Made by a program: the position numbers and the translations under genes. From assembly GCF_020181355.1 (NCBI RefSeq), contig NZ_CP084004.1:1798001-1862000 (forward strand): a stretch of 64,000 bases of DNA. The letters are read 5' to 3'. Below the pieces are notes generated by a model. That model saw nothing but the letters and a program-made list of their open reading frames with translations. It had not been told where the DNA came from and did no database searches. Position 1 is the first letter of the stretch, and the number at the start of each line of letters is the position of its first letter. Source of the DNA: Collinsella aerofaciens (GTDB lineage: Bacteria; Actinomycetota; Coriobacteriia; Coriobacteriales; Coriobacteriaceae). Positions 40,756-62,628 of the stretch are shown piece by piece.

Positions 40756-42072
40756 TTATTCTTCCCACTCCAAATGGGAATCCTCCGATGCGCCTTCGCA
40801 TACTCGCATGACCTCGATACCATGCGAGCGTGCGAACTCGACGAGTTCTGCGTTGCGGGCGTTTATGGTGCCGAAGGCGGAGGGGCACACGATAAGGCGC
40901 GCGCAGTGGACGAGGAGCTCTTTGGCGCGGGCTATGGTTTTATCCCCGATCGGCTCGAAGGCGCGCTCGGCCACGCATTCCGTCGCCAGGTCGCGCGCGA
41001 GCTCGCAGTCGATGTCCCCTTCGTGCAGAACGCCCGCGTAGAACGCCTTGCCCTGTCGGATGAGCTGGCGAAACACAGCCGACCCCGTACCTGCGCCAGC
41101 GATGACGAACGTGTGCGCATCGCCGTGTGGGCGCCCAATTTCCACGCTGCCGAAGCGCTCGTTGAAGGTGCCATGTTTAAGGCCGTAGAGCTCGCCAATC
41201 GTCTCGCGCGTGAATATGTCCTCGGGTGCGCCGGCGCGGAAGACCCGGCCGTCCTTCACGCAAATCACCTTGTCGGCGCTTTTCTGCGCGAGCTCGAGTT
41301 CGTGGATGGACATGATGATAGCCACATTCCGCGATTTCGCAAGGTGGCGAAGTATTCGCAGCAGGTCGATCTGGTAGCGGATATCGAGATACGACGTGGG
41401 CTCGTCGAGCACGAGCACGCGCGGATCCTGCGCGATGGCGCGTGCGAGCATGACGCGCTGGCGTTGCCCGTCGCTTATCTGCATGAAGTCGCGCTCGGCG
41501 AGCTCTTCCACATGTGCGGTTTTCATGGCCTCGTCGACCCGACTATGGTCGTCGGGCGAGAGTGTGCCCATTCGCCCGGTGTAGGGATGCCTTCCCGCCT
41601 CTACGATATCGCGGCAGGTGAGGAGCTCGGTCCGGGGGCGATCTGTCAGCATAACGGCAAGGTTCCTTGCGAACTCCGCCGTCTTCCATCGGGAAATCTC
41701 CCGCCCGTCGAGCTCGACCGCGCCGGCAAGCGGTGCCAGATGGCGTGTGATGGTTTTCAAGATGGTCGACTTGCCCGAGCCGTTCGGCCCGATGAGCGCC
41801 ACGACGTCGCCCGCGCGAACCTCCAGATCGACGCCTTCGACTACGACCTTCTTGTCGTAGCCCGCCGACAGGTCGCTTATGCGGAAAAGCGGCGCTCCGT
41901 CAGCCTGCGTTTCGACCGGGGTTTCGAGGTTCGACTCCGCTCGAAGGAGGCGTTCCGCACGCAGTTCCGCACGAGCCGAAAGTGTCTTCTGGCGCTTTCG
42001 TGCGAGCTCAGGACTGTCTAAGCATGGAATGTCCCCTCCGAGCGTTTTGGGCCGCGGCACGAATTCCCCCAT
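40756..42072 (-). CDS. ABC transporter ATPase, cobalamin/Fe-siderophore (BtuD-like) with extra C-terminal domain
   Basis: This is a 438-residue ATPase. The ABC domain (about residues 62-290) has Walker A LIGPNGSGKST near 94-103, signature ISDGQRQRVMLARAIAQDP and Walker B VLVLDEPTSYLD. The roughly 140-residue C-terminus (TFVIAGAGTGSAVFRQLI ... LVEFARSHGIEVMRV) is outside the ABC domain, looks Rossmann-like and is of unknown function. The N-terminal region (residues 19-38) is encoded by a palindromic repeat that looks inserted in frame. The start codon abuts the BtuC-like stop. It is the last gene of the cbiK-to-btuD operon. Confidence 0.82.
   Translation of the reverse strand: MGEFVPRPKTLGGDIPCLDSPELARKRQKTLSARAELRAERLLRAESNLETPVETQADGAPLFRISDLSAGYDKKVVVEGVDLEVRAGDVVALIGPNGSGKSTILKTITRHLAPLAGAVELDGREISRWKTAEFARNLAVMLTDRPRTELLTCRDIVEAGRHPYTGRMGTLSPDDHSRVDEAMKTAHVEELAERDFMQISDGQRQRVMLARAIAQDPRVLVLDEPTSYLDIRYQIDLLRILRHLAKSRNVAIIMSIHELELAQKSADKVICVKDGRVFRAGAPEDIFTRETIGELYGLKHGTFNERFGSVEIGRPHGDAHTFVIAGAGTGSAVFRQLIRQGKAFYAGVLHEGDIDCELARDLATECVAERAFEPIGDKTIARAKELLVHCARLIVCPSAFGTINARNAELVEFARSHGIEVMRVCEGASEDSHLEWEE
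41963..42023. repeat. Palindromic repeat core inside the ABC ATPase gene
   Basis: AGTTCCGCACGAGCCGAA (41963-41980), a 16-base centre and TTCGTGCGAGC, then AGGACTGT, repeat the core of the 152-bp palindrome at 30588-30646. On the minus strand it encodes residues 19-37 of the ATPase without a stop, so it behaves like an in-frame coding insertion between the N-terminus and the ABC domain. Confidence 0.7.
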
Positions 42073-43113
42073 CTACCTCACCCGCTTCTTCAGCATGAGC
42101 GCGATAACCACCGGCGCGCCGAAGATGGCAGTGACGGCGCTGATGGAAAGCTCGACGGGAGAGAACAGCGTGCGCGCGATCAAATCGCAACCCGCGCAGA
42201 AGATGGCGCCTCCCAAGAAGCACGCAGGAATCACGCGGATGGGCTTCGACGACTTCAGCGCCGACTTCACGAGATGCGGAACCGCGATGCCTACGAACGA
42301 CACCGGACCAGCGAACGCGGTCACGCAGGCGGAGAGCATGCTCGCTAGAAGGACGAGCACCACGCGGAAGCGTGCGACGTTCACGCCGACGCTTTTCGCG
42401 TAGGCTTCTCCCAGCTGGAAGGCGGAAAGGGGCTTCGATATCGCGAATACGCATGCGCTCACGGTGATCACCACGACCACGATGACCGCGATGTCGTCCC
42501 AGCTCGAACCCGAGAAGCTACCCAAAGACCAGTTGTGCAGGTTCACGATGGACTGGTCGTCGGCGAAGGCGATGAGAAAGTTCGTCGCCGCCGAGCAGAT
42601 GTATCCCACCATGACGCCCGCCACGATGAGCATGGCCATGGAACTTATGCGCCGTGCGATGAGGAGCACGAAGCCGATGGTGATAAGCGATCCCAGAAAC
42701 GCTGCGGCCACCATGGCCGGCGAGGACATAGCCTGGTTCGCGCCCAGAAGCACGATCATCGTAAGCGCGACGACGAACTTTGCGCCCGAGGAGACGCCCA
42801 AGATGAACGGGTCGGCGATGGGGTTGTTGAAAAACGTCTGCAGCAGGAACCCGGAGAGCGAAAGTGCCCCGCCGAGAAGCACGGCTGAAAGCACGCGCGG
42901 CAGGCGAATCTCCCAGATGACTTGGCTTTCCATGGAATTGGCCGCGCCGCCCGAAAGGATGCCGGGGATGTGGTCTGCGGGCACGAGCACGCTCCCGATG
43001 CACAGGTTGGCCCCGACGAGCACGATGAGGGCAACGGCGAGCAGCGCCGTCACGACGCGACACCGCGCGGCGCGCCCCGATTCGTCGTATGTCATGGAAA
43101 GTCGGCTTCTCAT
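42073..43113 (-). CDS. ABC transporter permease, BtuC/FecCD family
   Basis: This 346-residue permease has about ten membrane helices. It has the family motifs RLPRVLSAVLLGGALSLSGFLLQ near residue 75 and GPVSFVGIAVPHLVK in the coupling region, followed by LLGGAIF-type CFLGGAIFCAGCDLIARTLF. It moves a corrinoid, siderophore or heme-like ligand. The start overlaps the BtuF-type gene's end region by four bases spacing and the stop abuts the ATPase start. Substrate is inferred as corrinoid from the riboswitch. Confidence 0.88.
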   Translation of the reverse strand: MRSRLSMTYDESGRAARCRVVTALLAVALIVLVGANLCIGSVLVPADHIPGILSGGAANSMESQVIWEIRLPRVLSAVLLGGALSLSGFLLQTFFNNPIADPFILGVSSGAKFVVALTMIVLLGANQAMSSPAMVAAAFLGSLITIGFVLLIARRISSMAMLIVAGVMVGYICSAATNFLIAFADDQSIVNLHNWSLGSFSGSSWDDIAVIVVVVITVSACVFAISKPLSAFQLGEAYAKSVGVNVARFRVVLVLLASMLSACVTAFAGPVSFVGIAVPHLVKSALKSSKPIRVIPACFLGGAIFCAGCDLIARTLFSPVELSISAVTAIFGAPVVIALMLKKRVR

Positions 43114-43117
43114 GGTG

Positions 43118-44689
43118 CTAGCCGAGCTTCCTCAGATAATGGAAGTCGCTCGCGTCATCGCCGGTGAACGCCCCGTGCAGCTCGTCGATAATGTCGGCGG
43201 TAGAAGTCATCTGCTGGTACATGTCGGCGCTTGTGACCCAGACGTTGCCGTTCTTCACGGCTTTGAACTGCGACAATAGCGCGTTTTTGCCTACAAAGTC
43301 GTTCAAGGTGGCAACCGATTCGTCGATGGTGCCGTTGTAGACGATGATGTCGGCATCCTTCGCCGTCGCGTAGAAGCGCTCCATTTCGAGCGTTACTGAC
43401 GAACCTGACGTCGACGCCGTCTGCGCGTCATCGAGCGCGTAGTTGCCGCCTGCAAGCTCGATCATCTGCGCCACGTAGTCGCCCGCCCGCCGCGTGACGG
43501 CGGCCCCGTTCGAGTTAATGTAGAAATACGCCACGGTTTTACCTGACGACGCAAGCCTCGACGTTTGCTCGACGCGGGCCTTCTGCTCGTTGAACAGGTG
43601 CGCGGCCTCGTCTTCCTTGTCGAACAGGACGCCGAAAAGCTTAATCCACTCGACGCGCCCGAGTGCTTCGGGCTCGCTCGACGACTGTTCGGTGAGCACG
43701 ACGAGTCCGAGCTTCTGCAGCTTTTCCTTCACATCGGGTGTGTGGTTGATCATGGTGTTCTCGATGGCGAGCGTGCAGCCCGAGGCCGATATTCGCTCGT
43801 AGTCGGGCGCGCTGTACTTGCCGCCGTAGGCGATCGCCCCACTTTCGAGCGCGCTTTTGAAGCCCGCGACCGAGCAATCGTCGGCCTTCGTGCCCGACAT
43901 GAAGATATTGTCGTTCGCATCGAGCGCGTCGACCAGGCACATCGTCGCCGACGACACGAGGTACACCTTGTCGGCGGGGCGCCTTATGACCGCGATGTCA
44001 GAGCTCAACCCATCAGGTACCTTCGCATCTTGCGGTACCACGAGGAAGCGCTCCCCGTTCGAAACGCAGATAAGCCGCAGGCCGCCTTCGAACTCGTCGA
44101 CAGTGAAGTGCTTGGCGTATTCAAGCTGAAGCGTCCCCGTCGGCTCCCAGCCGCAGCCCAAATCTGGGTTGTGGAAGTCGGCCGCGGCGCTTGAAGCCGT
44201 TCCCGCGGGGGAGTCGCCGCTTGCATCGTCGCCCGATTTCTCCTTCATGGTGGATGAGTCGAAGTGGAGCGTGTAGTCGATGGTGTGCGGCGTCGACATG
44301 GCGACGGTCTCGGCCGACACGGCGATGTCCTCGTCGAGCGTGACGGGTATCTCGAACGTGGAGTTGCCGCCGTCGTTTATGGGCGCGTAGTCCACGCCGT
44401 CGATGGTCATCTTGTCGTAGTTCGAACTCGACCAGGTGATGGTCGCGGTGTAGGTGTCGCCATCCTTCACAATTGTGGTGGGTGAGGCGATGCTTGCGCG
44501 CCCTGACCCGCCGGAAAGCGAGACGCTCACAGTGTATTCCTGAGAGCCCGTCGTGGCACCGGTCGCGTTCGGGCTCGCACTGCACCCCGCGAAGGGAAGC
44601 GCGAGCAGGGCGACGAGAACGCAGGCGATCGCGCGCGCCGCGATTCTGTGGCGCTTCCTGTTTTCCCCCTTGGGAAGAATCGACCGCAT
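43118..44689 (-). CDS. Corrinoid/metalloporphyrin-binding lipoprotein, N-terminal beta-domain fused to BtuF-type binding domain
   Basis: This is a 523-residue secreted lipoprotein. The signal peptide is unusually long in its n-region, then hydrophobic, with lipobox LPFAGC near 35. An N-terminal domain (about 50-150, VKDGDTYTATITWSSSNYDKM ... FEIPVTLDED) is clearly related to the neighbouring small lipoprotein. It is followed by a Ser/Ala linker and a type III periplasmic-binding domain (about 180-523) with ISASGCTLAIENTMINHTPDV and GRVEWIKLFGVLFD. It would pass its ligand to the BtuC/BtuD pair. The exact ligand is unproven. Confidence 0.75.
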   Translation of the reverse strand: MRSILPKGENRKRHRIAARAIACVLVALLALPFAGCSASPNATGATTGSQEYTVSVSLSGGSGRASIASPTTIVKDGDTYTATITWSSSNYDKMTIDGVDYAPINDGGNSTFEIPVTLDEDIAVSAETVAMSTPHTIDYTLHFDSSTMKEKSGDDASGDSPAGTASSAAADFHNPDLGCGWEPTGTLQLEYAKHFTVDEFEGGLRLICVSNGERFLVVPQDAKVPDGLSSDIAVIRRPADKVYLVSSATMCLVDALDANDNIFMSGTKADDCSVAGFKSALESGAIAYGGKYSAPDYERISASGCTLAIENTMINHTPDVKEKLQKLGLVVLTEQSSSEPEALGRVEWIKLFGVLFDKEDEAAHLFNEQKARVEQTSRLASSGKTVAYFYINSNGAAVTRRAGDYVAQMIELAGGNYALDDAQTASTSGSSVTLEMERFYATAKDADIIVYNGTIDESVATLNDFVGKNALLSQFKAVKNGNVWVTSADMYQQMTSTADIIDELHGAFTGDDASDFHYLRKLG

Positions 44690-44693
44690 GGCG

Positions 44694-45227
44694 TTACTTC
44701 AGTGCGTCGGCGCGCAGATCGACGCCGGCGGATTCGAACACGAGCGTGCGGTCGTACCACTGCTCTTTTCTAATACTCCACGCGGCGCAGGCGGTGTCCT
44801 CGTCGAGCGCTTCAACGGGCACGTCGTAGGTGTACTTGCCTTCCGCGTTTTCCACATAGGGGATGAAGTCGGCCTCGCTCGCGGTGGCAGCCTCGTCACC
44901 CGTGCCCATGAAGAGCTTGCCGTAGCCCGTGCCGGAAAGTGTCATCACGCAGTGCATGGAGCCGTTTTCCACGATGAGCTGGGCGTCCACAATCCTGAAC
45001 ATGTTCGAGCTGGAATCTACGGTGATCGGATAGGTGCCGTCGGCCACCTTGTCGGCGGTGATGGGGGCAGCGCTTGCGCCCTCGGGCGCATCGGCCGCCT
45101 GTTCGGTCTTTTCCTGGGAATCGGCATCGCTTGCCTTTGCGCTGTCGATTGAATTTCCGCCGCAGCCGGCGAGCGAGAACGCGAAAAGCGCCGCTGACAG
45201 GGCGAAGGCGAGGGTTTTCTTCAACAT
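44694..45227 (-). CDS. Small surface lipoprotein with NEAT-like/iron-transport-associated beta-domain
   Basis: This is a 177-residue lipoprotein with signal peptide and lipobox (FSLAGC). An acidic spacer (SDADSQEKTEQAADAP) is followed by a beta-rich domain with DGTYPITVDSSSNMFRIVDA, MTLSGTGYGKLFMGTG and YTYDVPVEALDED. The same pattern (VxDGxxxxxxTxSSxxYxKM, ... xIPVxLDE) occurs in the N-terminus of the adjacent binding protein. It is likely an extracellular ligand-capture partner. It follows cbiK by 145 bases holding a strong hairpin and precedes the binding protein by four bases. Confidence 0.65.
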   Translation of the reverse strand: MLKKTLAFALSAALFAFSLAGCGGNSIDSAKASDADSQEKTEQAADAPEGASAAPITADKVADGTYPITVDSSSNMFRIVDAQLIVENGSMHCVMTLSGTGYGKLFMGTGDEAATASEADFIPYVENAEGKYTYDVPVEALDEDTACAAWSIRKEQWYDRTLVFESAGVDLRADALK

Positions 45228-45290
45228 GGAGGGGGTTCCTTTCAATCGCTTCGACCGCCCGCGCCGTGCGGTGGGCGGGCGGGATGCGAA

Positions 45291-45337
45291 TGCAACGGGC
45301 ATGCGCCGTCGGTCGGGGAAGGCGCATGCCCGTTGCA
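45291..45337 (-). other. 17-bp perfect hairpin between cbiK and the small lipoprotein gene
   Basis: TGCAACGGGCATGCGCC (45291-45307) pairs perfectly with 45321-45337 around 13 bases. There is no T run on the minus strand, so it may be a processing or stability element letting cbiK and the downstream genes be expressed at different levels. Confidence 0.55.
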
Positions 45338-45372
45338 CGGGGACGCGACCGGCGCCCCCGTGCGCGGCGAGT

Positions 45373-46299
45373 TTACAGCTTGGCGATGGCGTCGTCCACG
45401 TGCGAGACGTAGATGTCGTCGACCGCGGCGTTCTGTCCCAGACCCTGGAGCAGGCACGTCACTTCGAAGCCAGCGGCCACGAACTTCGCAGCCCAGCTGT
45501 CGGGGTCGGTCTCGTCTGCCATGTCGTTGTTCGCGTGGTCGCCCGCGACCACCATGAACGGCGCGAGCACGGCCTTCTTGTACCCTGCGGCGCTCGCGGC
45601 GGCGATAACATCCTCGCAGGTCGGCTCAGCCTCGACGGTGCCGACGAAGAACTGCGTCAAGCCCTCGTTCTTGAACACTTCCTGCATCTTGGCATAGTCG
45701 GCGTTGGAATCGGCTTCGGTGCCGTGGCCCATGAGGCACAGCGCCGTCTTGCCGTCGTCGAAGGACGCCATGTTCTCATTAATGGCTGCGGCCACCTTCT
45801 TGTAGTCGTCGTCGGAGGTGAGCAGCGGGTCGCCGAGCGAGATCTTGTCGAACTTGTCGGCGTACTTGTCGAGCTCGTCTTTCACGTCGGCGTATTCCAA
45901 GCCAGCCATGAGATGCGTCGGCTGCACGACAATTTCCTTCACGCCGTCTTCCACGCAGCGGTCGAGCGCCTCGGTCATGTTGTCGATCGTGATGCCGTCG
46001 CGCTTCTTCAGCTTGTCGATGATGATCTGCGCGGTGAAGGCGCGGCGGATGTCGTAGTCCTGCCAGTACTTCTCGCGGATAGCGTCTTCGATGGCGCCGA
46101 TGGTGATGTGGCGCGAGTCGTTGTAGCTCGTGCCGAAGCTCGTGACGAGGATGACCGGCTTCACGGCCTTCTCCTTTTCACTCGATTTCTCGGAACTCGC
46201 GGAGGTGCTGGAGCAGCCCGCGAGCGCGACTCCGGCGAGCGCGAATGCTCCGGTTGCTGCGGCGCCCATGAAGCCGCGGCGTGACATCTGGTCGGACAT
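45373..46299 (-). CDS. cbiK: Exported sirohydrochlorin cobaltochelatase CbiK (Tat-signal lipoprotein)
   Basis: This 308-residue chelatase inserts Co2+ into sirohydrochlorin. It begins with a twin-arginine motif (MSRRGFMGAAA) and ends its signal with a lipobox (ALAGC, Cys29), so the enzyme should be folded before export and anchored outside the membrane. The mature part has ILVTSFGTSYND, a metal-site His in LCLMGHGTEAD, Glu in TVEAEPTCEDVI and a second His in VVAGDHANNDMAD. These match the two metal-binding His of CbiK. ATG 46299 follows GAGGAAAGG; the longer upstream frame is in the riboswitch tail. Exported CbiK forms are known in Desulfovibrio. Confidence 0.85.
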   Translation of the reverse strand: MSDQMSRRGFMGAAATGAFALAGVALAGCSSTSASSEKSSEKEKAVKPVILVTSFGTSYNDSRHITIGAIEDAIREKYWQDYDIRRAFTAQIIIDKLKKRDGITIDNMTEALDRCVEDGVKEIVVQPTHLMAGLEYADVKDELDKYADKFDKISLGDPLLTSDDDYKKVAAAINENMASFDDGKTALCLMGHGTEADSNADYAKMQEVFKNEGLTQFFVGTVEAEPTCEDVIAAASAAGYKKAVLAPFMVVAGDHANNDMADETDPDSWAAKFVAAGFEVTCLLQGLGQNAAVDDIYVSHVDDAIAKL

Positions 46300-46399
46300 G
46301 GTTTTTCCTTTCCTCGGTTTGCCGGTCCCCCGGCGACAGTTGCTTGTCGGCACAAGCGAAAGAAAAGCGCACCCCTCGGGGTTCACAAGGAGCTAACGC

Positions 46400-46550
46400 C
46401 ACGGCGATGCCGTGAGGAAAAGGCGAAGCAGTCTGGCTTGGGGCGCGAGGCGGTTCGCCTGCGCGTCCTACACAGTAATGTCCCTTGCCCAGGATTCCCA
46501 CCTGGTTCCCTCCGCAAGCCAGCGCGGGCTGTGCGGGCGCCGCGCCGGTC
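46400..46550 (-). promoter_or_regulatory. Cobalamin riboswitch upstream of cbiK
   Basis: On the minus strand the region carries the conserved AdoCbl-riboswitch core: GGAGGGAAccaGGTGgGAATCC, then GGGaCATtACTGTG, then the B12-box-type AAGCCAGActGC, in the right order and spacing. Downstream hairpins (CCCCGAGGGG and neighbours near 46370) could be the expression platform. It should shut off cbiK, the lipoprotein and the ABC genes when cobalamin is abundant. No equivalent core was seen on the plus strand for cbiF. Confidence 0.85.
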
Positions 46551-46757
46551 ATTTCCTTTTATCCGATTGTCATATGCTCGTTGCCGAAACTTTTACTATG
46601 ATAGTGGGCACTTGTGAACGTGTCAAAGCCAGGGCGGGCGGCATTGCGCCTCCTGCCTGCGTATTTGCGCCGATTGCCGCCGCAGGCGCCGTGTTTTGTC
46701 CGCTGCGCGAATGGCGGCGTCAACGGTTGCGATGAGAAACGGGAAGGGAAGGCTCGG

Positions 46758-47549
46758 ATGATTCATATCGTTGGCGCTGGCTCGGGCGCCGCCGACCTTA
46801 TCACGCTGCGCGGGGCGCGCCTTCTGCGCGCGGCCGACGTGGTCGTTTGGGCGGGGAGCCTTGTGAACCCCGAGCTGCTCGCTGAGTGCAAGGAATCCTG
46901 CATCGTCTACGACAGCGCGCACATGACCTTGGAGGAAGTGCTCGACGTGATGTGCGCGGCGGATGCGCGGGGCGAGGAAGTGGTGCGCCTGCACACGGGC
47001 GACCCGTGCCTGTACGGCGCCATCCAGGAGCAGATGGACGCACTCGACGCGCGCGGCGTGGACTACGAGGTGGTGCCCGGCGTGTCGAGCTTTTGCGGTG
47101 CCGCGGCGGCGCTTCGCCAGGAATACACGCTGCCGGGAATCAGCCAGTCGGTCGTGATCACGCGGCTTTCCGGACGTACCCCCATGCCCGCGGGCGAGGG
47201 CATGCGCACCATGGCGGAAAGCGGCTCGACTATGGTCATCTTCCTGAGCTCGGGTATGCTCGCCGAGCTTTCCGCCGAGCTTTTGGCCGCGGGCCGCAGC
47301 TCCGATGAGCCGGCGGCGCTCGTGTACAAGGCGACCTGGCCTGAGGAGCGCGTGGTGCGATGCACAGTGGGCACGCTCGCCGATGCGGGCGCGCGAGAGG
47401 GCATCGACCGCACGGCGCTCGTGGTGGTGGGCCGCGTGCTCGGAGCTCGCGGCAGGCTTGCACACAACGGCGCGCAAGCGGAGTCGTACGAGCGCAGCAA
47501 GCTTTACGACCCTTCGTTTTCCACGGGGTATCGGAAGGCGAGCAGCTAG
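46758..47549 (+). CDS. cbiF: Cobalt-precorrin-4 C11-methyltransferase CbiF
   Basis: This is a 263-residue SAM-dependent methyltransferase of the tetrapyrrole family. It has MIHIVGAGSGAADLITLRGARLL, the aspartate-containing LHTGDPCLYGA and VPGVSSFCGAAAALRQEYTLPGISQ, and VIFLSSGML, which fit CbiF/CobM. It adds the C11 methyl group. The start at 46758 follows GGGAAGGGAAGG. It is the first gene of the rightward cobalamin operon; the 200 bases before it hold a divergent promoter area and no riboswitch core. Confidence 0.88.
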   Translation: MIHIVGAGSGAADLITLRGARLLRAADVVVWAGSLVNPELLAECKESCIVYDSAHMTLEEVLDVMCAADARGEEVVRLHTGDPCLYGAIQEQMDALDARGVDYEVVPGVSSFCGAAAALRQEYTLPGISQSVVITRLSGRTPMPAGEGMRTMAESGSTMVIFLSSGMLAELSAELLAAGRSSDEPAALVYKATWPEERVVRCTVGTLADAGAREGIDRTALVVVGRVLGARGRLAHNGAQAESYERSKLYDPSFSTGYRKASS

Positions 47550-47550
47550 C

Positions 47551-48735
47551 GTGGCCTTCGAGCACTACATATATACCGGGACGACCCGCCTGCGCTGCGG
47601 CTACACCACGGGGAGCTGCGCCGCGCTCGCGGCGAAGGCGGCCTGCGAGATGCTTTTGTCACGAAAGCCCGTCGGCCGCGTGTCGATCGTCACCCCCGGC
47701 GGGCTGCCCGTCGAGGCGAACGTGGTCGACGCATGCATCGGCGAGGGGTGCGCCCAGTGCGCCGTGCGAAAGGACGCAGGCGACGATGCCGATGTGACTG
47801 ACGGCGTACTCGTGTACGCGCACGTGGAACATGCGGGGTCGGGCACGGGTGCTGCGGGCAGCAAGGACGTGCCCGCGCGCGAATCGGAAGTTTCCGTCGA
47901 TGGCGGCGTGGGCGTGGGGCGCGTGACATTGCCCGGGCTCGAGCAGCCGGTGGGGGCGGCCGCCATCAACGCGACGCCGCGCGCGATGATCACTTCGGCG
48001 GTGCGCGAGGTGTGCGCCGCGCACGGCTTTTCTGGAAATATTGCTGTGACGATTTCGGTACCCGAGGGTGTTGCCCTTGCCAAAAAGACCTTCAACCCGC
48101 ATCTGGGGATAGAGGGCGGCATCTCCATCCTGGGCACGACGGGCATCGTCGAGCCGCGCAGCCTCGCTGCCTTGCGCGACAGCATCGAGCTCGAGATCCG
48201 GCAGCATGCGGCTATGGGGCGGCGCGGAGTCGTGCTCACGCCCGGCAACTACGGCGGGCAGTTCATCTCGGGGCATTTCCACCTAAACGGTGCGCCGGTG
48301 GTCTTCATCTCCAACTTTGTGGGCGATGCGATTGACTGCTGCGTTCGCGAGGGATTTACCAATGTCCTTCTTGTGGGACACATCGGCAAGTTGGTGAAGG
48401 TCGCGGGCGGCATCATGGACACCCATTCGCGTACCGCCGACTGCCGCGCGGAGATTCTGGCCGCCCACGCGGCCATGGCCGGCGCGGGCGCGAAGACCGT
48501 GCGCGAGATCATGTCGTCCGTCACGACCACGGCGGCGCTCGAGGTAATCGAGGCCGCCGGCGTTGGGGACGCTGCGCGCGCCTCGCTCGCTGCGGCAATT
48601 GAGGACAGGTTGCGCCGTCGCGCGGCGGGCGCATGCGACATCGCCGCGGTCGTGTTCGACGCCGAGCGCCGCGAGCTTTTCCGCACGTCGGGCGCCGATG
48701 CAGTTATCGGGAAATTGGGGGCGACGTATGAGTAA
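47551..48735 (+). CDS. cbiD: Cobalt-precorrin-5B C1-methyltransferase CbiD
   Basis: This 394-residue enzyme methylates C1 in the anaerobic pathway. The CbiD signature LRCGYTTGSCAALAAKAA is near residue 13. The central LTPGNYGGQFISG-like block (GVVLTPGNYGGQFI) and LLVGHIGKLVKVAGGIMDTHS are also typical. The GTG start is two bases after the cbiF stop. The 3' end overlaps the cbiL remnant by eight bases, preserving translational coupling. Confidence 0.92.
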   Translation: MAFEHYIYTGTTRLRCGYTTGSCAALAAKAACEMLLSRKPVGRVSIVTPGGLPVEANVVDACIGEGCAQCAVRKDAGDDADVTDGVLVYAHVEHAGSGTGAAGSKDVPARESEVSVDGGVGVGRVTLPGLEQPVGAAAINATPRAMITSAVREVCAAHGFSGNIAVTISVPEGVALAKKTFNPHLGIEGGISILGTTGIVEPRSLAALRDSIELEIRQHAAMGRRGVVLTPGNYGGQFISGHFHLNGAPVVFISNFVGDAIDCCVREGFTNVLLVGHIGKLVKVAGGIMDTHSRTADCRAEILAAHAAMAGAGAKTVREIMSSVTTTAALEVIEAAGVGDAARASLAAAIEDRLRRRAAGACDIAAVVFDAERRELFRTSGADAVIGKLGATYE

Positions 48736-48961
48736 AGGCGTTCTGTACGGGGTGCGCCGTGCAATCGGCTGGCCGGGGACGAAGGTGGTCATGAAGGCGC
48801 GCCGCTCGCTTGCGGACACGAAGCGCTTCCTTTGCGAGGAGGGTGCCTTCGACGGTGCCGAGCTTGTAGAGGACTGTGGGCTTCCGGGCGAGCGCGTGTA
48901 CCGCTCGCTCGACGATGTGCCCGATCGGGGCAGCTACTTCTCGACGATGGTGGTGCGCTAG
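48728..48961 (+). pseudogene. cbiL: cbiL remnant with internal deletion (precorrin-2 C20-methyltransferase)
   Basis: This is a 77-codon frame with a good start that overlaps the cbiD stop. Its first nine residues (MSKGVLYGV) match the N-terminus of CbiL/CobI. After a short junction (RRAIGWPG) the rest matches only the CbiL C-terminal strand and tail (TKVVMKARRSLADTKRF; VEDCGLPGERVYRSLDDVPD; YFSTMVVR). Normal CbiL is about 230 residues, so roughly 150 internal residues including the SAM-binding core are missing. The deletion is in frame and keeps coupling to cbiG. No other CbiL is in the window. It cannot act as a methyltransferase. Confidence 0.78.
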
Positions 48962-50095
48962 ATGAGGGTTTCCTGCATAGCGTTCACTGAGAGGGGGTAT
49001 GCGTTGGCGGTGCGCACCGCACATGCGCTTTCCGATTGCGCGCAGACAGGTGAAGACGACCCTGGCTGGGACGTTTCCGTTTCGCGCGGGTTCGGCGAGG
49101 GGAAGGCCGACCTGCGCGCATGGACGGCGCTCGCGTGGGAAGCGTCGGACGCGCTTCTGTTCGTGGGCGCGGCGGGCATCGCCGTGCGGGCGATCGCGCC
49201 GCATGTCGCCTCGAAGGCAAACGATCCCGCGGTTGTGGCGATCGACGAGGCGGGGCGCTTTGCCGTCCCGCTTTTGTCGGGGCATTTGGGCGGTGCGAAC
49301 GAGCTTGCGCAAACTGTGGCACGCGCGGCAGGGGCCATCCCCGTCATCACCACGGCGACCGACGTCCGCGGCGTGTGGGCGGTGGATACGTGGGCGCGCT
49401 GTGCGGGGCTCGCCGTTTCGAATCCCGAGGCCATCAAGCGAGTGTCGGCGCGGTTGCTTTCGGGCGGGCGCGTGGCGCTCTATTCCGACATGCCGATTTC
49501 GGGACAGCCGCCTGAGGGGGTTGACATTGCGTCCGACCGCGCTCGGGCCGATATCGTCGTGTCGCCGTTCGCTGGCGCGAATGCAGGTGCGTCCGTTCGT
49601 GCGGCGGAGACAACGGGCGAGGTCGTGCCCGCCGGTGAGACGGGGAAGCCGGCGGGCGTGCGGGCGCAGGCGCCTGCGCCCGAGCCGCTTCGCCTTGTCG
49701 TGCCCTGCATCGTTGCGGGCATAGGATGCCGTCGCGGTGCGTGCGCCGAAGCGATCGAGGAGGCGTTTCTTCTCGCGTGCGGGCAGGTGGGTATCTCGCC
49801 TTCGGCCGTGCGCGAGGCGGCGACGATCGACGTGAAGGCGCACGAGGAGGGTCTGCTCGCCTTCTGCTGCGCGCGCAATATCCCGCTTGCGACGTATTCC
49901 GCAGAGGAGTTGTCGCAGGTCGAAGGCAGCGTTTCGCCATCTGATTTCGTGCGCGCGACGGTGGGGGTCGACAACGTGTGCGAGCGGGCAGCGCTCGCGG
50001 AGGGGGGCAAACTTATCTTCCCGAAGCTCGCTCACGGCGGCGTGACCGTCGCGTTTTCCAAGGTAACTATTAAACTTTCGTTTAAGGAACGGTGA
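48962..50095 (+). CDS. cbiG: Cobalt-precorrin-5A hydrolase CbiG
   Basis: This 377-residue enzyme opens the ring-contraction lactone and releases acetaldehyde. The N-terminal domain has LLFVGAAGIAVRAIAPHV and LLSGHLGGANELAQTVA. A central Ala/Gly-rich stretch leads to the C-terminal CbiG domain IVAGIGCRRGACAEAIEEAF. The ATG directly follows the remnant's stop. The gene overlaps cbiH by one base. Confidence 0.9.
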   Translation: MRVSCIAFTERGYALAVRTAHALSDCAQTGEDDPGWDVSVSRGFGEGKADLRAWTALAWEASDALLFVGAAGIAVRAIAPHVASKANDPAVVAIDEAGRFAVPLLSGHLGGANELAQTVARAAGAIPVITTATDVRGVWAVDTWARCAGLAVSNPEAIKRVSARLLSGGRVALYSDMPISGQPPEGVDIASDRARADIVVSPFAGANAGASVRAAETTGEVVPAGETGKPAGVRAQAPAPEPLRLVVPCIVAGIGCRRGACAEAIEEAFLLACGQVGISPSAVREAATIDVKAHEEGLLAFCCARNIPLATYSAEELSQVEGSVSPSDFVRATVGVDNVCERAALAEGGKLIFPKLAHGGVTVAFSKVTIKLSFKER

Positions 50096-50838
50096 TGGGA
50101 AAGCTCTTCGTGGTGGGAATCGGCCCGGGCGGCCCCGACGGCATGACGATTGCGGCTCGGCGTGCGCTCGAGGCGTCCGACGTCGTTGTGGGTTACACGA
50201 AATACGTGGAGCTCGCGCTCGCCGCCGTGCCCGACGCGGCGCATCTCGCGACGCCGATGATGCACGAGGTCGAACGGTGCCGCCTTGCGCTTTCGCGCGC
50301 GCAGAGTGGAGAAGCCGTGGCGCTCGTGTGCAGCGGCGACGCGGGCGTGTACGGCATGGCGAGCCCCGTGCTGGAGCTTGCGGAGGACTACCCCGATGTA
50401 GACGTGGAAGTTATCGCCGGGGCCACCGCGGCTCAGAGCGGGTCGGCGGTGCTCGGCGCCCCGCTTGCCCACGACTTCGCGGTCGTGTCGCTCTCCGACC
50501 TGCTCACGCCATGGGAGGTCATCGAGCGCAGGCTCGCCGCCGTGGCGAGCGCCGACTTCTGCATCTGTTTGTACAACCCGCGCAGCAGAAAGCGCGCCGA
50601 CAGGCTCTCACGCGCGGCGAAGATTATGCTCGAATGGAAGGCCCCCGACACGCTCTGCGGCTGGGTGCGCAACATCGGGCGCGAGGGGCAGCAGTCGGGC
50701 ATGTGCAGGCTCTCCGAGCTGGGGGAGATCGACGCCGATATGTTCACCACCGTGTTCGTCGGCAACGCGGACACGAAGCTCGTAGGCGGCCGTATGGTCA
50801 CGCCGCGCGGGTATCGGGAGATTCCATGCGAAAGGTAA
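50095..50838 (+). CDS. cbiH: Cobalt-precorrin-3 C17-methyltransferase CbiH
   Basis: This is a 247-residue SAM methyltransferase. KLFVVGIGPGGPDGMTIAARRALEASDVVVGY, VCSGDAGVYGMA and VIAGATAAQSGSAVLGAPLAHDFAVVSLSDLLTPW are family hallmarks. LYNPRSRKR follows. It methylates C17 with ring contraction. A GTG one codon upstream is the alternative start. It ends inside the cbiET start region (13-base overlap). Confidence 0.93.
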   Translation: MGKLFVVGIGPGGPDGMTIAARRALEASDVVVGYTKYVELALAAVPDAAHLATPMMHEVERCRLALSRAQSGEAVALVCSGDAGVYGMASPVLELAEDYPDVDVEVIAGATAAQSGSAVLGAPLAHDFAVVSLSDLLTPWEVIERRLAAVASADFCICLYNPRSRKRADRLSRAAKIMLEWKAPDTLCGWVRNIGREGQQSGMCRLSELGEIDADMFTTVFVGNADTKLVGGRMVTPRGYREIPCER

Positions 50839-52175
50839 CGATCATCGGGGCGGGGCCCGGAAACCCCGACTTGCTCTCGCGCGCGGCGCTCGACGCGATC
50901 GACATCGCCGACGTGGTCATCGGCGCTCATCGCGCGCTTGCCGGCATCGACGTGCCGCCCGACGTGGTGAGATGCGAGCTCGTGAAGACGGCGGACATCG
51001 TCGCCGCGCTCACCGATGCGGCGTCGTGGCAGCGCGCCGTGGTCGTGATGACGGGCGATGTGGGGCTGTTCAGCGGCGCGCGCCGCCTGGTGGAGGCGCT
51101 CTCCGGCGACGCGCAGGTGGACGTGCGCGTCATTCCCGGCATAAGCTCAGTGTCGTATCTCGCCGCGCGCCTCGCGCGTCCATGGCAGGATTGGCGCTTC
51201 GCGAGCGCTCACGGCGTGGCGTGCGACATCGTGGCCGAGGCCGAGCGCGCAGGTGAGCTCTTCCTCGTCACGTCGGGCGGGGAAGATCCCTCGCGGCTTT
51301 CGGGCGAGCTTGTGCAGGCGGGCTTCGGGGACGCGTGCGTGACGGTGGCCGAGCGCCTGTCGTACCCCGACGAGCGCATCACCTGCGCGACCGCAAGTGA
51401 AATCACAGGTCAGACGTTCGACGACTTGAACGTGATGCTTATCGATTTCGCAGGCGGCGCCGGGTCGCCTGCGGGCTCTAGCGCAGCCTCCGAGGTGCCG
51501 GCCGGCGTGTCTGCGCCCGCGGCGGCTTCTTCCGCGGCGGACTCTGCGGGCGCATCCCGCGCCGCGAGTTCCCGCTGGCCGTACGCTTCCTCGGGCATTC
51601 CCGACGAGCTCTTCATCCGCGGCGACGTTCCCATGACCAAGCAGGAGGTGCGCGCCGTCGCGCTCGCGAAGCTGCGCCTTACCGCGACCGACACCGTGTG
51701 GGACGTCGGCGCCGGCACGGGGAGCGTGTCGATCGAGGCGGCGCTCGTCGCGCGAGCGGGGTCGGTATGGGCGGTCGAGCGCAACGCGGCCGGCGTGCGG
51801 CTCATCCGAGAGAACGCGGATGCATTCGGGTGCGGCAACGTGCATGCGGTCCCCGGCGTCGCCCCCGAAGCGCTCGCGATACTGCCCGTCCCCGACGCCG
51901 TGTTCGTCGGCGGGAGCGCGGGCGAGCTTCCCTCCATCGTGGAGGTGGCGCTCGAGAAGAACTCGCAGGTTCGCCTGTGCGTGCCATGCGTCACCGTTGA
52001 GACGCTCACCGAGGCGTGCGCGCTCCTCTCGGGTTCGCGCTTTAAGGGGTTCGAGGCTTGCCAGGTGTCGGCCGCCCGCGCCGAGGCTGTAGGCTCGCAC
52101 CATCTTATGAAGGCGCAAAACCCCGTGTTCCTCGTCAGCGCGCGTGGTGCAGGTGGGGAAGGCGGCGCCCGGTGA
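50826..52175 (+). CDS. cbiET: Cobalt-precorrin-7 methyltransferase / decarboxylase fusion CbiE-CbiT
   Basis: This is a 449-residue bifunctional enzyme. Residues 1-200 are CbiE (C5 methylation; KVTIIGAGPGNPDLLSRAALDAI, GDVGLFSGARRL, PGISSVSYLAARL). About residues 245-449 are CbiT (C15 methylation and C12 decarboxylation; VWDVGAGTGSVSIEAALVA). A long Ala/Ser-rich linker (about 205-240) joins them. Separate CbiE and CbiT genes occur in many anaerobes; the fusion parallels CobL. Confidence 0.92.
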   Translation: MRKVTIIGAGPGNPDLLSRAALDAIDIADVVIGAHRALAGIDVPPDVVRCELVKTADIVAALTDAASWQRAVVVMTGDVGLFSGARRLVEALSGDAQVDVRVIPGISSVSYLAARLARPWQDWRFASAHGVACDIVAEAERAGELFLVTSGGEDPSRLSGELVQAGFGDACVTVAERLSYPDERITCATASEITGQTFDDLNVMLIDFAGGAGSPAGSSAASEVPAGVSAPAAASSAADSAGASRAASSRWPYASSGIPDELFIRGDVPMTKQEVRAVALAKLRLTATDTVWDVGAGTGSVSIEAALVARAGSVWAVERNAAGVRLIRENADAFGCGNVHAVPGVAPEALAILPVPDAVFVGGSAGELPSIVEVALEKNSQVRLCVPCVTVETLTEACALLSGSRFKGFEACQVSAARAEAVGSHHLMKAQNPVFLVSARGAGGEGGAR

Positions 52176-53554
52176 GCACGACCATCCCGCGCTTCATGGT
52201 CGCTGCGCCCTCGAGCGGGAGCGGCAAGACGGTCGTTACGTGCGCGCTCCTGCGCGCGCTCGCGCGCCGCGGCCTTGCATGCGCGGCCTTCAAATGCGGC
52301 CCCGACTACATTGATCCGCTCTTTCATCGTCGCGTCGTGGGCGCGCGCTCGGGCAACTTAGACGGCTTCTTCACCGACGCCCCGACGCTGCGCGCCCTGC
52401 TCGCACGCGGCGCCGCGGGCGCGGATGTCGCGGTGCTCGAGGGGGTCATGGGCTTCTACGACGGCATGGCGCCCGGCGTGGCCGATGCGAGCAGCTACCA
52501 GGTTGCGTGCGACACGGAAACGCCGGTCGTTTTAGTGGTGAACGGGCGCGGGGCGTCTTTATCGCTCGCCGCCGTAATCCGCGGCATCGCCGAGTTCCTG
52601 CCTTGTGCGAACGTGCGCGGCGTCGTGCTGAACAAGACGAGCGCCGCTGCCTGCGCCTACGCGAAGCCTGCGATCGAGAAGCACACGGGTGTCGCGGTTT
52701 TGGGGAATATCCCCGCCGACGATGCGTTCTCGCTCGAAAGCCGGCATTTGGGGCTTGTGACCGCCGACGAGGTCGAGCAGCTCTCCGCGCGCATCGACAA
52801 GATGGCCGAGCTGGTGGAAAAGAGCGTCGACGTCGACCGCTTGCTCGAAATAGCGGCGACGGCATCCGATATCCGCGAGGAACCTTACCGGTTGGAGCCG
52901 ATCGCGGGAGCGCGGCCCATCGTCGCCGTCGCACGTGACGAGGCGTTCTCGTTCTACTACGAGGAGAACCTGCGCGCGCTCGAGGACCTGGGTTGCGAGC
53001 TGGCCTTTTTCAGCCCCCTGTGTGATAGCGAGTTGCCCCGGGGGACAAGCGCCCTCTATCTGGGAGGCGGCTACCCGGAGCTCCATGCGCGGCAGCTCTC
53101 CGAGAACGCGCCGATGCGCGAGGCGGTGCGGCGTGCGGTGGAATCCGGCATGCCGACGGTTGCCGAATGCGGTGGGTTTCTGTACCTGCAGCGCGAAATC
53201 TCCGATAGCGAGGGGCGGCGCTGGCCTGTTGCGGGCGCCCTTGAGGGCGCAAGCGAGAACGGGGGAAGGCTGTCCCATTTCGGGTACGTGGAGCTCACTT
53301 CCCAACGCTACGGGCTCTACGGGCCGCGCGGCACACGCATCCGCGCGCACGAGTTCCACTACTGGCAGTCCACCTGCCCGGGCGGCGACTTCTGGGCGCA
53401 GAAGCCCCGGCGCGACAAGGGCTGGCCGTGCATGACGACCACCCCGGCCCTGGTTGCGGGCTTCCCGCATGTGTACTATCCTGCGAACCCCGACGTTGCG
53501 CGCGCGTTCGCGTCTGCCACAGCGTCGTTCGCAGAGAGGAGACGGCATGGCTGA
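52172..53554 (+). CDS. cbiA: Cobyrinate a,c-diamide synthase CbiA
   Basis: This 460-residue enzyme amidates the a and c carboxylates using glutamine and ATP. The N-terminal P-loop MVAAPSSGSGKTVVTCALLRAL and FKCGPDYIDP are diagnostic. The C-terminal class I glutaminase has the active Cys in AECGGFLYLQ and a His in HEFHYW. The GTG start overlaps the cbiET stop by four bases, and the end overlaps cobT by eight. Confidence 0.93.
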   Translation: MSTTIPRFMVAAPSSGSGKTVVTCALLRALARRGLACAAFKCGPDYIDPLFHRRVVGARSGNLDGFFTDAPTLRALLARGAAGADVAVLEGVMGFYDGMAPGVADASSYQVACDTETPVVLVVNGRGASLSLAAVIRGIAEFLPCANVRGVVLNKTSAAACAYAKPAIEKHTGVAVLGNIPADDAFSLESRHLGLVTADEVEQLSARIDKMAELVEKSVDVDRLLEIAATASDIREEPYRLEPIAGARPIVAVARDEAFSFYYEENLRALEDLGCELAFFSPLCDSELPRGTSALYLGGGYPELHARQLSENAPMREAVRRAVESGMPTVAECGGFLYLQREISDSEGRRWPVAGALEGASENGGRLSHFGYVELTSQRYGLYGPRGTRIRAHEFHYWQSTCPGGDFWAQKPRRDKGWPCMTTTPALVAGFPHVYYPANPDVARAFASATASFAERRRHG

Positions 53555-54689
53555 AGCAACCGAAACCGCGCTTGCCTACATCCGCGAGGAAGTCGAGCGC
53601 GCGTTCTCGTCGGCGCCGGGCGCCGTGCTCGAAGCCGCGCTCTCCCGGATCGCGCCCGCAGATGAGTGTGCCCGCGCCGCCGCGTACGCCGCGTGGGATT
53701 CCATCGCGCATCCTTTGGGGGGATTGGGCGACTTTGAAGACGCCGTCGCGCGTATCGCCGCAGCTCAGGGGAGCGCCGAGGTGGCCGAGTTTCCCCGTGC
53801 GCTCGCGGTATTCTTCTCCGACAACGGGGTCGTTGCCGAGGGCGTGTCGCAAAGCGGGCAAGACGTGACGCGAGCCGTCGCGCGCAACATGTGCGAGGGG
53901 GCCACGAGCGCCTGCCGCATGGCGGCGTTCGCGGGTGCCGAGGTCGTGCCCGTCGACGTGGGTATGGCCCGGGGCATAGAAGACGCTCGCATGGTGCGCG
54001 CGAACGTGCGGCGGGGGAGCGGCAACATCGCGCACGGCTCCGCCATGTCTCGCGATGGGGCCGTGCGCGCAATCGAGGTCGGAATCGCCGTCGCGTGCGG
54101 GCTTGCCCGCGCCGGCGTGCGCCTTCTCGCCGCGGGCGAGATGGGCATCGGCAACACGACCACCTCGGCGGCGGTGGCCGCAGTGCTCATCCGAGCGGAC
54201 GCGCGGAGCCTCGTCGGGCGCGGCGCGGGGCTCTCGGACACCTCGCTCGCGCGCAAGCGCGACGTGGTCGAGCGCGCTATCGACGCGAACTCGCCCGATC
54301 CCGCCGACCCGATCGACGTGCTCTCGAAGGTGGGCGGCTTCGACATCGCGGCGATGTGTGGCTTCTACCTGGGGGCCGCGGCCTCGAAGGCGCCGGCGCT
54401 CCTCGACGGGGTCATATCCTGCACGGCGGCCCTGTGCGCGGTGCGCCTGTGCCCCAACGCCTTGGGCTACCTCGTGGGCACCCACGCATCTAGCGAACCC
54501 GCAAGCCAGGAGCTCCTTCGCGAGCTCGGCATAAAGGCACCCCTCGACGCAGGCATGCACTTGGGCGAGGGCGCGGGCGCCATGGCGTATCTGCCCCTTC
54601 TGGATTCGGCGCTGCGCGTGTACCGGGATGGGAAGACGTTCACGGCGACTGGCATGGCTGCTTACGAGCATTTCGAGGCCGGGAAATGA
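53547..54689 (+). CDS. cobT: Nicotinate-nucleotide-dimethylbenzimidazole phosphoribosyltransferase CobT
   Basis: This 380-residue enzyme activates the lower-ligand base as its alpha-ribazole phosphate. VFFSDNGVVAEGVSQSGQDVTRAVARNM, GEMGIGNTTTSAAVAAVL and the catalytic-Glu motif MHLGEGAGAMAYLPLLD are clear. The lower ligand (benzimidazole, phenol or purine) cannot be predicted from this sequence. It overlaps cobU by four bases. Confidence 0.93.
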   Translation: MAEATETALAYIREEVERAFSSAPGAVLEAALSRIAPADECARAAAYAAWDSIAHPLGGLGDFEDAVARIAAAQGSAEVAEFPRALAVFFSDNGVVAEGVSQSGQDVTRAVARNMCEGATSACRMAAFAGAEVVPVDVGMARGIEDARMVRANVRRGSGNIAHGSAMSRDGAVRAIEVGIAVACGLARAGVRLLAAGEMGIGNTTTSAAVAAVLIRADARSLVGRGAGLSDTSLARKRDVVERAIDANSPDPADPIDVLSKVGGFDIAAMCGFYLGAAASKAPALLDGVISCTAALCAVRLCPNALGYLVGTHASSEPASQELLRELGIKAPLDAGMHLGEGAGAMAYLPLLDSALRVYRDGKTFTATGMAAYEHFEAGK

Positions 54690-55234
54690 CGGTGACGTTC
54701 GTTATCGGCGCCGCCGCGAGCGGCAAGAGCGCCTATGCCGAGTCCCTGTGCCTCGGGCACGACGGCCCCCGCGTGTACCTGGCAACGATGGAGCCCTTCG
54801 GGGAAGAGGGCACCCGCCGTATCGCGCGCCATCGGGCGATGCGCGAGGGCAAGGGGTTTTCCACCCTCGAGCGCACGCGTGACGTGGGCGCCGCAGTGCC
54901 CGGGCTTCCGCGCGGCTGCACGCTTCTTTTGGAGGACGTGGGCAACCTGGTTGCGAACGAGCTCTTCGCGGAAGGCGGCTTGTCCCCACGTGACCCCGAC
55001 GCTGTGGCGCGCGAGGTGCTCGGAGGCATCGAACGACTCACTCAGGCCGCTGCGTATACGGTGGTGGTCTCCGTCGACGTGTTCGCCGATGGGATGCGCT
55101 ACGATGAGGGGACCGAGGGATGGAGGCGCGCGCTCGCGCGCGTGAACGCGGGCGTGGCGGCGCTGGCCGACCGCGCAGTCGAAGTGGTATGCGGGATTCC
55201 CGTGTGGATGAAAGGCGAAGGACCTACAAGGTGA
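54686..55234 (+). CDS. cobU: Adenosylcobinamide kinase/guanylyltransferase CobU-like protein
   Basis: This 182-residue CobU has an intact P-loop VIGAAASGKSAYAES, YLATMEPFGEEGTRRIARHRAMR with the guanylylated-His region, and LLLEDVGNLVANELFAEGG. The EVGxGxVP loop of CobU is replaced by DVFADGMRY, but the C-terminal CGIPVWMKG remains. A second CobU-like domain with the opposite pattern is in the cobC fusion at 55995. It overlaps cobS by four bases. Confidence 0.8.
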   Translation: MTVTFVIGAAASGKSAYAESLCLGHDGPRVYLATMEPFGEEGTRRIARHRAMREGKGFSTLERTRDVGAAVPGLPRGCTLLLEDVGNLVANELFAEGGLSPRDPDAVAREVLGGIERLTQAAAYTVVVSVDVFADGMRYDEGTEGWRRALARVNAGVAALADRAVEVVCGIPVWMKGEGPTR

Positions 55235-60682: not shown

Positions 60683-61194
60683 TCCACGTGTATCATGGCG
60701 ACGGCAAAGGCAAGACCACGGCGGCGATGGGCCTCGCCCTTCGCATGCTCGCCGCAGGCCGCCGCGTCGTCGTCGTGCAGTTCCTGAAAGACGGCGAAAG
60801 CGGGGAGGTGCGCCTGCTCGCCGAGCATTTCGGCGTGCCCGTGTTCGCGGGGAAGGCGTCGGACAAGTTTACCTGGTCCATGACGTCGGAAGAACTTGCC
60901 GCGACGCGCGAGCTGCACGATGGGAACCTCGCTTCCGCGCTCGCCGAGCTCGAGGGCGCGCAGGAGGGACTGCTCGTGCTCGACGAGGCGCTCGACGCGC
61001 TTTCGAAGGGGCTTGTCGACGAGGCGCTCGTGGACCGCGCGCTCGATATGTCCGCGCGCGGCGTCGAAGTAGCGCTCACCGGGCGCGCGCCTTCCCGCAA
61101 GATCGTGGAGAAGGCCGACTACATAACCGAGATGCGGTGCGAGAAACACCCCTACGCTCAGGGGATAGGTGCAAGGGAAGGAGTGGAGTACTAG
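60679..61194 (+). CDS. btuR: Cob(I)yrinic acid a,c-diamide adenosyltransferase (CobO/BtuR type)
   Basis: This 171-residue P-loop enzyme adds the upper adenosyl ligand. YHGDGKGKTTAAMGLALRML is its nucleotide loop, with VVQFLKDGESGEV, LLVLDEALDALSKGLV and the C-terminal EMRCEKHPYAQGI. Required before cobyric acid formation and for salvage. It abuts cbiC directly. Confidence 0.95.
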   Translation: MIHVYHGDGKGKTTAAMGLALRMLAAGRRVVVVQFLKDGESGEVRLLAEHFGVPVFAGKASDKFTWSMTSEELAATRELHDGNLASALAELEGAQEGLLVLDEALDALSKGLVDEALVDRALDMSARGVEVALTGRAPSRKIVEKADYITEMRCEKHPYAQGIGAREGVEY

Positions 61195-62606: not shown

Positions 62607-62628
62607 GCGCTCGCCGCGCCTGCGCGCC

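Follow-up and report, generated by a model that had tools for sequence, protein, structure and literature searches.

The locus raises the question of how an anaerobic cobalamin operon is kept when one of its ring-building enzymes is missing. The window, a stretch of 64,000 nucleotides, comes from a genome (2.28 Mb, 99.9% complete) of the Collinsella aerofaciens complex, and this species is a frequent inhabitant of the human gut. It carries a cobalamin cluster in which the slot of cbiL holds a frame of 77 codons. The families from CbiK to CbiP were recognised by NCBIfam models, several of them under the curated cut-offs. As the earlier note had claimed, the remaining ring genes from cobalt insertion onward (CbiK, F, D, G, H, ET, C, J and A) are present. 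The features are as follows.

40775..62646, no strand assigned: cluster moved by horizontal transfer; outside N runs, the copies in Gordonibacter, Senegalimassilia and Ellagibacter share about 98% identity with it (sequence comparison)
40756..42072, minus strand: ABC ATPase (PF00005)
42073..43113, minus strand: FecCD-type permease (PF01032)
43118..44689, minus strand: ABC substrate-binding protein (PF01497), N-terminal domain homologous to the product of 44694-45338 (profile match and domain comparison)
44694..45338, minus strand: small protein resembling a lipoprotein, with a single NEAT-like domain that scores under the Pfam NEAT cut-off
45373..46386, minus strand: putatively exported CbiK, PF06180 cobaltochelatase domain; SRRGFM twin-arginine-like motif and lipobox LAGC (by eye), probable start about 46299
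46710..47549, plus strand: cbiF, over the TIGR01465 cut-off; start codon chosen in the analysis
47554..48735, plus strand: cbiD, over the TIGR00312 cut-off; its end overlaps mini-cbiL by 8 bp
48728..48961, plus strand: mini-cbiL of 77 codons, in which CbiL residues 1-9 run directly into the last 68 (profile match and congener comparison)
48752..48755, plus strand: deletion junction; 456 bp are lost, and the exact breakpoint is ambiguous inside GTG (congener comparison)
48962..50095, plus strand: cbiG, cobalt-precorrin-5A hydrolase family (profile match)
50092..50838, plus strand: cbiH, over the TIGR01466 cut-off
50832..52175, plus strand: cbiET fusion (profile match); linker length differs between genomes
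52175..53554, plus strand: cbiA (profile match)
53535..61194, plus strand: late-step and salvage genes cobT, cobU, cobS, cobC, cbiB, cobD, cbiP and one for a btuR-type adenosyltransferase; start codons chosen in the analysis
61195..61836, plus strand: cbiC, cobalt-precorrin-8 methylmutase family (profile match)
61833..62606, plus strand: cbiJ, over the TIGR00715 cut-off

The CbiE-CbiT fusion (50832-52175) varies from 413 to 488 residues among close genomes through its linker. Tandem tRNA genes of equal score lie at 38282-38355 and 38381-38454, shortly upstream of the moved cluster. No B12 riboswitch was found at the gathering threshold within the window.

The mini-cbiL frame starts with the ATG at 48728, overlapping the stop of cbiD by 8 bp (ATGAGTAA), and ends with the TAG at 48961, directly followed by the ATG of cbiG at 48962. 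The start and stop coupling described in the earlier note is therefore kept on both sides. Residues 10-77 matched positions 161-229 of the 230 positions of TIGR01467 (CobI/CbiL) with an E-value of 7.7e-10. The score was 38.6 bits against a curated cut-off of 163.25, which is below the level of a full-length member. This profile search indicates that the C-terminal part of the frame is CbiL beyond chance, as had been supposed. The N-terminal part consists of nine residues (MSKGVLYGV) and was assigned by comparison with full-length relatives, three of four of which start with MSKGVLYGVGTGPGDPELLT. Four congeners hold a CbiL of 229 residues in the same slot. Against them exactly 456 bp (152 codons) are absent, and the fusion of the two ends of CbiL in frame is borne out. 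The best-fitting breakpoint lies after base 24-27 of cbiL, within the repeat GTG[G/C]GC. Two junction variants, CGC and GGC, occur among the mini copies, and they could reflect two deletion events or one event and a point change. The deleted codons include GxGPGDPELLT and GDPS, which we take to be the N-terminal SAM-binding loop and the central motif of CbiL/CobI. Both are kept in the full-length relatives and were aligned with PDB 2qbu. Judged by its family, the remnant cannot be an active methyltransferase, and the predicted loss of CbiL activity agrees with the earlier note.

The preserved frame is a weak argument for selection: of the direct repeats of 6-8 bp within cbiL, 65-77% lie a multiple of three nucleotides apart. 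Given this spacing, in-frame deletions were set aside as proof of frame selection. Changes across 14 mini copies (18 synonymous and 13 non-synonymous) hint at some constraint on the mini-protein; this polymorphism is partly common with full-length alleles, and no conclusion was drawn. Most likely, the mini gene persists only to carry translation over from cbiD to cbiG.

A CbiL match was found in 17 of the 43 genus genomes, as 12 mini, four full-length and one divergent full-length form (G031). The same 456-bp deletion is present in 12 of these 17. Two further mini records were taken from a named genome collection and may represent some of the same species; two collection records with an identical mini-CbiL protein are named C. 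aerofaciens. The deletion sits on contigs of 2.2, 1.4 and 2.4 Mb in G000, G007 and G014. The earlier note had named an assembly error at this junction as grounds for rejecting its reading. A local error of this kind is not reasonable because the same deletion is found in 12 separate genomes and on megabase-size contigs; nothing was found that favours an assembly or sequencing artefact, which has next to no probability. The deletion is no strain accident and is common to the species complex. The divergence of the close genomes is shallow, with a pooled dS of about 0.06 for the operon genes. Among 781 informative SNPs in the 12 mini and 4 full-length genomes, 302 occur in all four combinations with the deletion. 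The haplotypes around the junction are shuffled, and recombination is strong around and across the deletion. A single recent sweep of the deletion was unsupported, given the shuffled haplotypes and the absence of any perfectly linked SNP (0/781). The 12 mini genomes are not 12 independent observations because they are close and recombining.

Gordonibacter, Ellagibacter, Senegalimassilia and one MAG carry almost identical operons. cbiL is full-length in Gordonibacter and the MAG. The in-frame deletions of the other two differ from the Collinsella one: 285 bp are gone in Ellagibacter and 315 bp in Senegalimassilia, the latter within two imperfect 23-nt repeats that are 315 nt apart in a full-length copy. 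The sequences show at least three separate truncations of cbiL among near-identical copies of the cluster. A cbiG search in the class sample of 396 genomes gave 20 operons of at least 95% identity, and all of them have a cbiL slot with a mini, shortened or full cbiL. Of 22 loci, 21-22 have complete cbiK, cbiD, cbiG, cbiH and cbiA genes, and 21 have a complete cobT. The genes from cobU to cbiC are complete in the 16 Collinsella loci, and cbiJ in 12 mini genomes. Disrupting deletions in other cluster genes were not seen in the stretches in view, which exclude the ATPase and cover the permease in part. Gordonibacter cbiD and parts of cbiF, cbiET and cobT fall in N runs or gaps. The length of the cbiET linker differs in 8 loci, and the ends of cbiF also differ.

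The similarity of about 98% spans the window from 40775-40786 to about 62606-62646 in Gordonibacter, Senegalimassilia and Ellagibacter. Beyond these borders, no similarity to the window was found in the compared stretches of the three genera. In Collinsella G058, the flanks of the cluster match the window too. In the moved unit, the genes of the ATPase, FecCD permease, binding protein, small lipoprotein and CbiK share the minus strand, and the cbi/cob genes are read from the plus strand. Because of the 98% identity with sharp borders, this 21.8-kb B12 cluster with its importer is judged to be a recent transfer between the orders Coriobacteriales and Eggerthellales. The deletion has independent counterparts in other genera. 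The earlier note had missed these, and also that the deletion is shared within a species complex.

CbiL is the cobalt-factor II C20-methyltransferase. A second full-length or split cbiL was not found elsewhere in the 99.9% complete source genome, which leaves the second copy that had been suggested without support. The members of PF00590 (tetrapyrrole methylase) in this genome are four: CbiF, CbiH, CbiE and one RsmI-like protein, the last being taken to be RsmI from its length and place. The same set was obtained in all six mini genomes examined, and five CbiL-positive genomes of the genus have these four members and CbiL. The start of the pathway is missing too. CobA (SUMT) gave no match in the source genome or in any genus genome of the class sample, and HemB was not found in any of the 14 genus genomes examined. 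HemB is also absent from Ellagibacter, Senegalimassilia and the MAG and is present in Gordonibacter. The source genome is therefore no de novo producer by HemB and CobA. The absence of HemB and CobA and the presence of the late genes would fit a tetrapyrrole precursor salvager, whereas CbiL, one of the ring markers, is dead. Since neither HemB nor CobA is present, the macrocycle must come from outside whether CbiL is intact or not. This dependence of the pathway on an imported precursor was overlooked in the earlier note.

The loss of CbiL was also followed in more distant relatives. In the class sample, CbiL was over the cut-off in 44 genomes and just under it in G228. Eight diverged CbiL-less genomes were found, seven of genus g50 and one of g86. 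Their PF00590 members are exactly CbiF, CbiH, CbiE and the RsmI-like protein, and neither CbiL nor CobA gave a match in any of the eight. The genes cbiD, F, G, H, J, ET and A are present in all of them. cbiC is in view in five (G202, G354, G380, G388 and, in part, G312) and falls beyond the stretch or contig in G242, G273 and G347. These genomes are drafts of 86-99% completeness; one absence of CbiL might be an assembly gap, and eight such gaps together are unlikely. In seven of these genomes the importer genes lead into cbiD without a change of strand, and the contig of G347 ends near cbiD. The lipoprotein was not recognised in G388, and the late genes of G273 have a different order.

In four sister genomes (G228, G267, G311 and G386), cbiL lies on a separate contig from the ring operon. 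The unlinked cbiL of G267 and G311 (stretches L139 and L141) is placed between topA and an AhpD-like gene near metG, as named from the translations, and that of G228 and G386 has a different setting. A small ArsC/Spx-like frame was seen by eye between cbiF and cbiD in G267 and G311 (L148:15005-15379 and L149:14942-15316). CbiL-less and CbiL-positive genomes are interleaved on the ring-gene tree of 22 rows. Six state changes are needed, at least five of them with good branch support, and the CbiL-less tips outside the island mostly have long branches. CobA matched in none of the 22 CbiL-less ring genomes (12 Collinsella, Ellagibacter, Senegalimassilia and 8 others; kinship uncorrected). It matched in 17 of 45 CbiL-positive genomes, a count that is also uncorrected for kinship and was obtained with a threshold that may miss split matches. 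G049, a 23rd CbiL-less ring genome, which is 85% complete in about 430 contigs, has CobA.

C20 might be methylated by a methyltransferase encoded elsewhere, either unrelated or re-specialised, or by a second action of CbiH, instead of by CbiL. Such a replacement accounts for the loss of cbiL alone, and CbiH is near-identical (97-100%) in CbiL-positive and CbiL-less island genomes. However, no extra PF00590 member exists in the six mini and eight diverged CbiL-less genomes, no recurring gene was noticed in the gaps of the diverged operons (partial annotation), and no column of CbiH, F, G, D, ET or A splits CbiL-less from CbiL-positive genomes outside the island. We consider the replacement improbable. 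The suggestion of another methyltransferase in the earlier note thus has no candidate in the tetrapyrrole-methylase family; an unrelated enzyme might still serve. Special residues in the ring enzymes of CbiL-less genomes were sought, and none were found.

Selection on the ring genes was determined from changes present in one sequence only. In eight ring genes, including cbiK, of 14 mini genomes, 257 synonymous changes, 174 non-synonymous changes and no stops were counted. About 19 stops were expected under neutrality from the mutation spectrum of fourfold sites. The ring-gene omega is 0.32 in the 14 mini genomes and 0.22 in the four full-length ones. The respective values are 0.40 and 0.28 for the late and salvage genes, and 0.58 and 0.35 for the two importer proteins in view. 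The rise in the mini genomes is not ring-specific because late and importer genes rise too. The ring genes of the cbiL-deleted genomes look to be still under purifying selection. In four Eggerthellaceae-type copies, two cbiL-deleted and two full, the ring omega is 0.53 (40 synonymous, 45 non-synonymous) and that of the late genes in view is 0.33 (23 synonymous, 16 non-synonymous). The higher ring value could come from early relaxation or small numbers. Stops had been tallied once each in cobT, cobS and the small lipoprotein, and none was taken as disruption. On checking, no codon within cobT is a stop, the cobS stop lies at codon 4 counted from a start chosen in the analysis, and the small-lipoprotein stops at codons 10 and 32 are ahead of its likely start.

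These values bear on the possibility that the ring-building part is unused in cbiL-deleted genomes, which would salvage corrinoids through cobT, cobU, cobS and other late genes. The ring genes would then be intact since the loss is recent and cbiL-positive relatives reintroduce good copies. The shallow divergence of the species complex and the strong recombination across the deletion fit such a decay, as does the ring omega of the Eggerthellaceae-type copies with its small numbers. Recombination with cbiL-positive genomes could keep ring genes intact without function in the deleted cells. A B12 requirement of C. aerofaciens is also reported in the consulted part of Rodionov et al. (2019, PMC6593275). 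In contrast, at least three different deletions struck cbiL and none struck the other ring genes in view. None of the expected stops appeared in the mini genomes, relaxation is not ring-specific, and the eight diverged CbiL-less genomes retain the other ring genes over long branches. We regard decay as rather unlikely. The selection pattern thus gives no support to the unproductive operon that the earlier note had offered as an alternative, and does not refute it.

The cluster also includes genes for an importer. All seven genomes inspected encode a CbiK with an export signal and a lipobox, as judged by eye: the signal is twin-arginine-like in six (the window genome and five relatives) and that of a plain lipoprotein in G273. 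CbiK aligns with Salmonella CbiK 1qgo, FetB 9b86 and 2xvx, and the active-site His/Glu/His are kept in the alignment to 1qgo. By hhalign, the small lipoprotein is homologous to the N-terminal domain of the binding protein (probability 96.9). Their membership in NEAT (PF05031) was not accepted under the Pfam cut-off: three of five domains scored 12.6 to 15.5 bits against a gathering threshold of 32.8, and two had no match. Next to cob genes in G202 (L129:3107-3676) and G380 (L150:663-1514), a surface domain of the binding-protein type is also found on a protein of its own, which has a hydrophobic C-terminus.

The importer genes adjoin the ring genes in all 14 assessable CobA-minus genomes outside the island (G202, G354, G242, G312, G380, G273, G267, G311, G228, G386, G388, G083, G298 and G031), in several of which the importer is only partly in view or CbiK is out of view. 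G251 has the importer and a doubtful CobA state, and the importer was not assessable in G347, G318, G350, G334 and G384. Among ten CobA-positive genomes, three have the importer (G166, G315 and, beside cbiL only, G297), and G276 has CbiK and small proteins beside cbiL. It was not seen in the other six, some stretches of which are cut.

The known substrate of CbiK is sirohydrochlorin, which would still need CbiL, a point against the import of a compound already past C20 methylation. It is conceivable that imported cobalt-sirohydrochlorin is contracted by CbiH and CbiG with C20 never methylated, so that CbiL is optional and C20 is released as a one-carbon fragment instead of acetaldehyde. In the known route, the C20 methyl group is lost together with C20. 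In addition, the exported CbiK is of the sirohydrochlorin type, and CbiH and CbiG are kept in every CbiL-less operon viewed. However, in Collinsella the cluster SNPs associate freely with either form of cbiL, distinguishing residues were not found, and cbiL/cobI is essential in classical producers. A skipped methylation is therefore highly improbable in our view. If it were true, the seemingly wasteful CbiL step of textbook B12 synthesis would be optional.

The explanation that we prefer, with about an even chance of being right, is a B12 pathway that has no CbiL of its own, is still used, and is fed by an imported tetrapyrrole already past C20 methylation. The sequences themselves show gene content, deletions, selection pattern and linkage; we infer the imported substrate, the direction of cross-feeding and the activity. 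A tetrapyrrole from other bacteria would be bound at the cell surface by the surface domains. The exported CbiK would insert cobalt into it outside the cell, and the ABC system would import the cobalt complex. The complex would join the pathway at CbiH, and the ring enzymes would complete the corrin. CbiL would be dispensable because the imported tetrapyrrole would already carry the C20 methyl group. In cbiL-deleted genomes, the compound would be at the level of factor III or cobalt-factor III, because CbiH needs a C20-methylated substrate where CbiL is lacking. Cluster alleles are exchanged between cbiL-positive and cbiL-deleted genomes, which favours one and the same substrate for CbiH in both. 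Possible suppliers would be cbiL-positive members of the same population. In the literature consulted on factor III salvage, no report was found for any organism. That import-fed corrin operons have repeatedly and specifically lost CbiL is unexpected.

The cluster shares the gene families from CbiK to CbiP with the anaerobic cobalamin pathway. It differs from that pathway in the 77-residue CbiL remnant, in having no CobA and no HemB, and in the export signal and lipobox of CbiK. The Collinsella CbiK also matches PDB 9b86, the heme-binding protein FetB of the Porphyromonas comparison, which we take to be the same protein as IhtB. A counterpart of the TonB-dependent receptor IhtA is not to be expected, because these cells have no outer membrane. 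The Iht system of Porphyromonas gingivalis comprises, in the part of PMC10913741 consulted, the CbiK-like lipoprotein IhtB, the binding protein IhtC, the permease IhtD and the ATPase IhtE. Likewise, Collinsella has an exported CbiK-like lipoprotein (signal by eye) with a binding protein, a permease and an ATPase. The Collinsella set lies in a corrin cluster, whereas the Porphyromonas system is discussed there as heme/iron uptake.

In the sections of Shelton et al. (2018, PMC6461909) consulted, CbiL/CobI is present in 87.1% of 201 genomes of tetrapyrrole precursor salvagers against 99.2% of 4209 producers, and CbiF/CobM is at 93.5% in the salvagers. The lower CbiL share fits CbiL loss and may partly come from annotation. 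Like these salvagers, Collinsella has the late pathway and apparently no precursor synthesis, HemB and CobA being absent. The experiments described in those sections tested dependence on 5-aminolevulinic acid, whereas the gap in Collinsella reaches past precorrin-2 to C20 methylation. C. aerofaciens ATCC 25986 was predicted as a B12 producer from gene presence, according to the consulted text of PMC4403557. In the text of Rodionov et al. (2019, PMC6593275) that was consulted, B12-requiring C. aerofaciens was suggested to be a precorrin-2 auxotroph. The species group and the inference of a missing pathway start are the same as here; that text counts the B12 gene set as complete, whereas cbiL is truncated in 12 of 16 close genomes here. 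The reported B12 need fits precursor auxotrophy, but it fits a dead pathway too. No mention of a truncated cbiL or of recurrent CbiL loss was found in the consulted portions of the literature on Collinsella and cobalamin or on missing cbiL.

With 12 of 16 close genomes without a working CbiL, and none examined with HemB or CobA, models of vitamin exchange in the gut change. If the pathway is fed by an imported C20-methylated cobalt-tetrapyrrole, this would be a new cross-fed metabolite and would give a function to exported chelatases of the Iht type. If true, the old puzzle of the corrin pathway of Porphyromonas without precorrin-2 synthesis becomes testable. Recurrent loss of a single enzyme in a guarded pathway would mark the step where the community supplies the intermediate.
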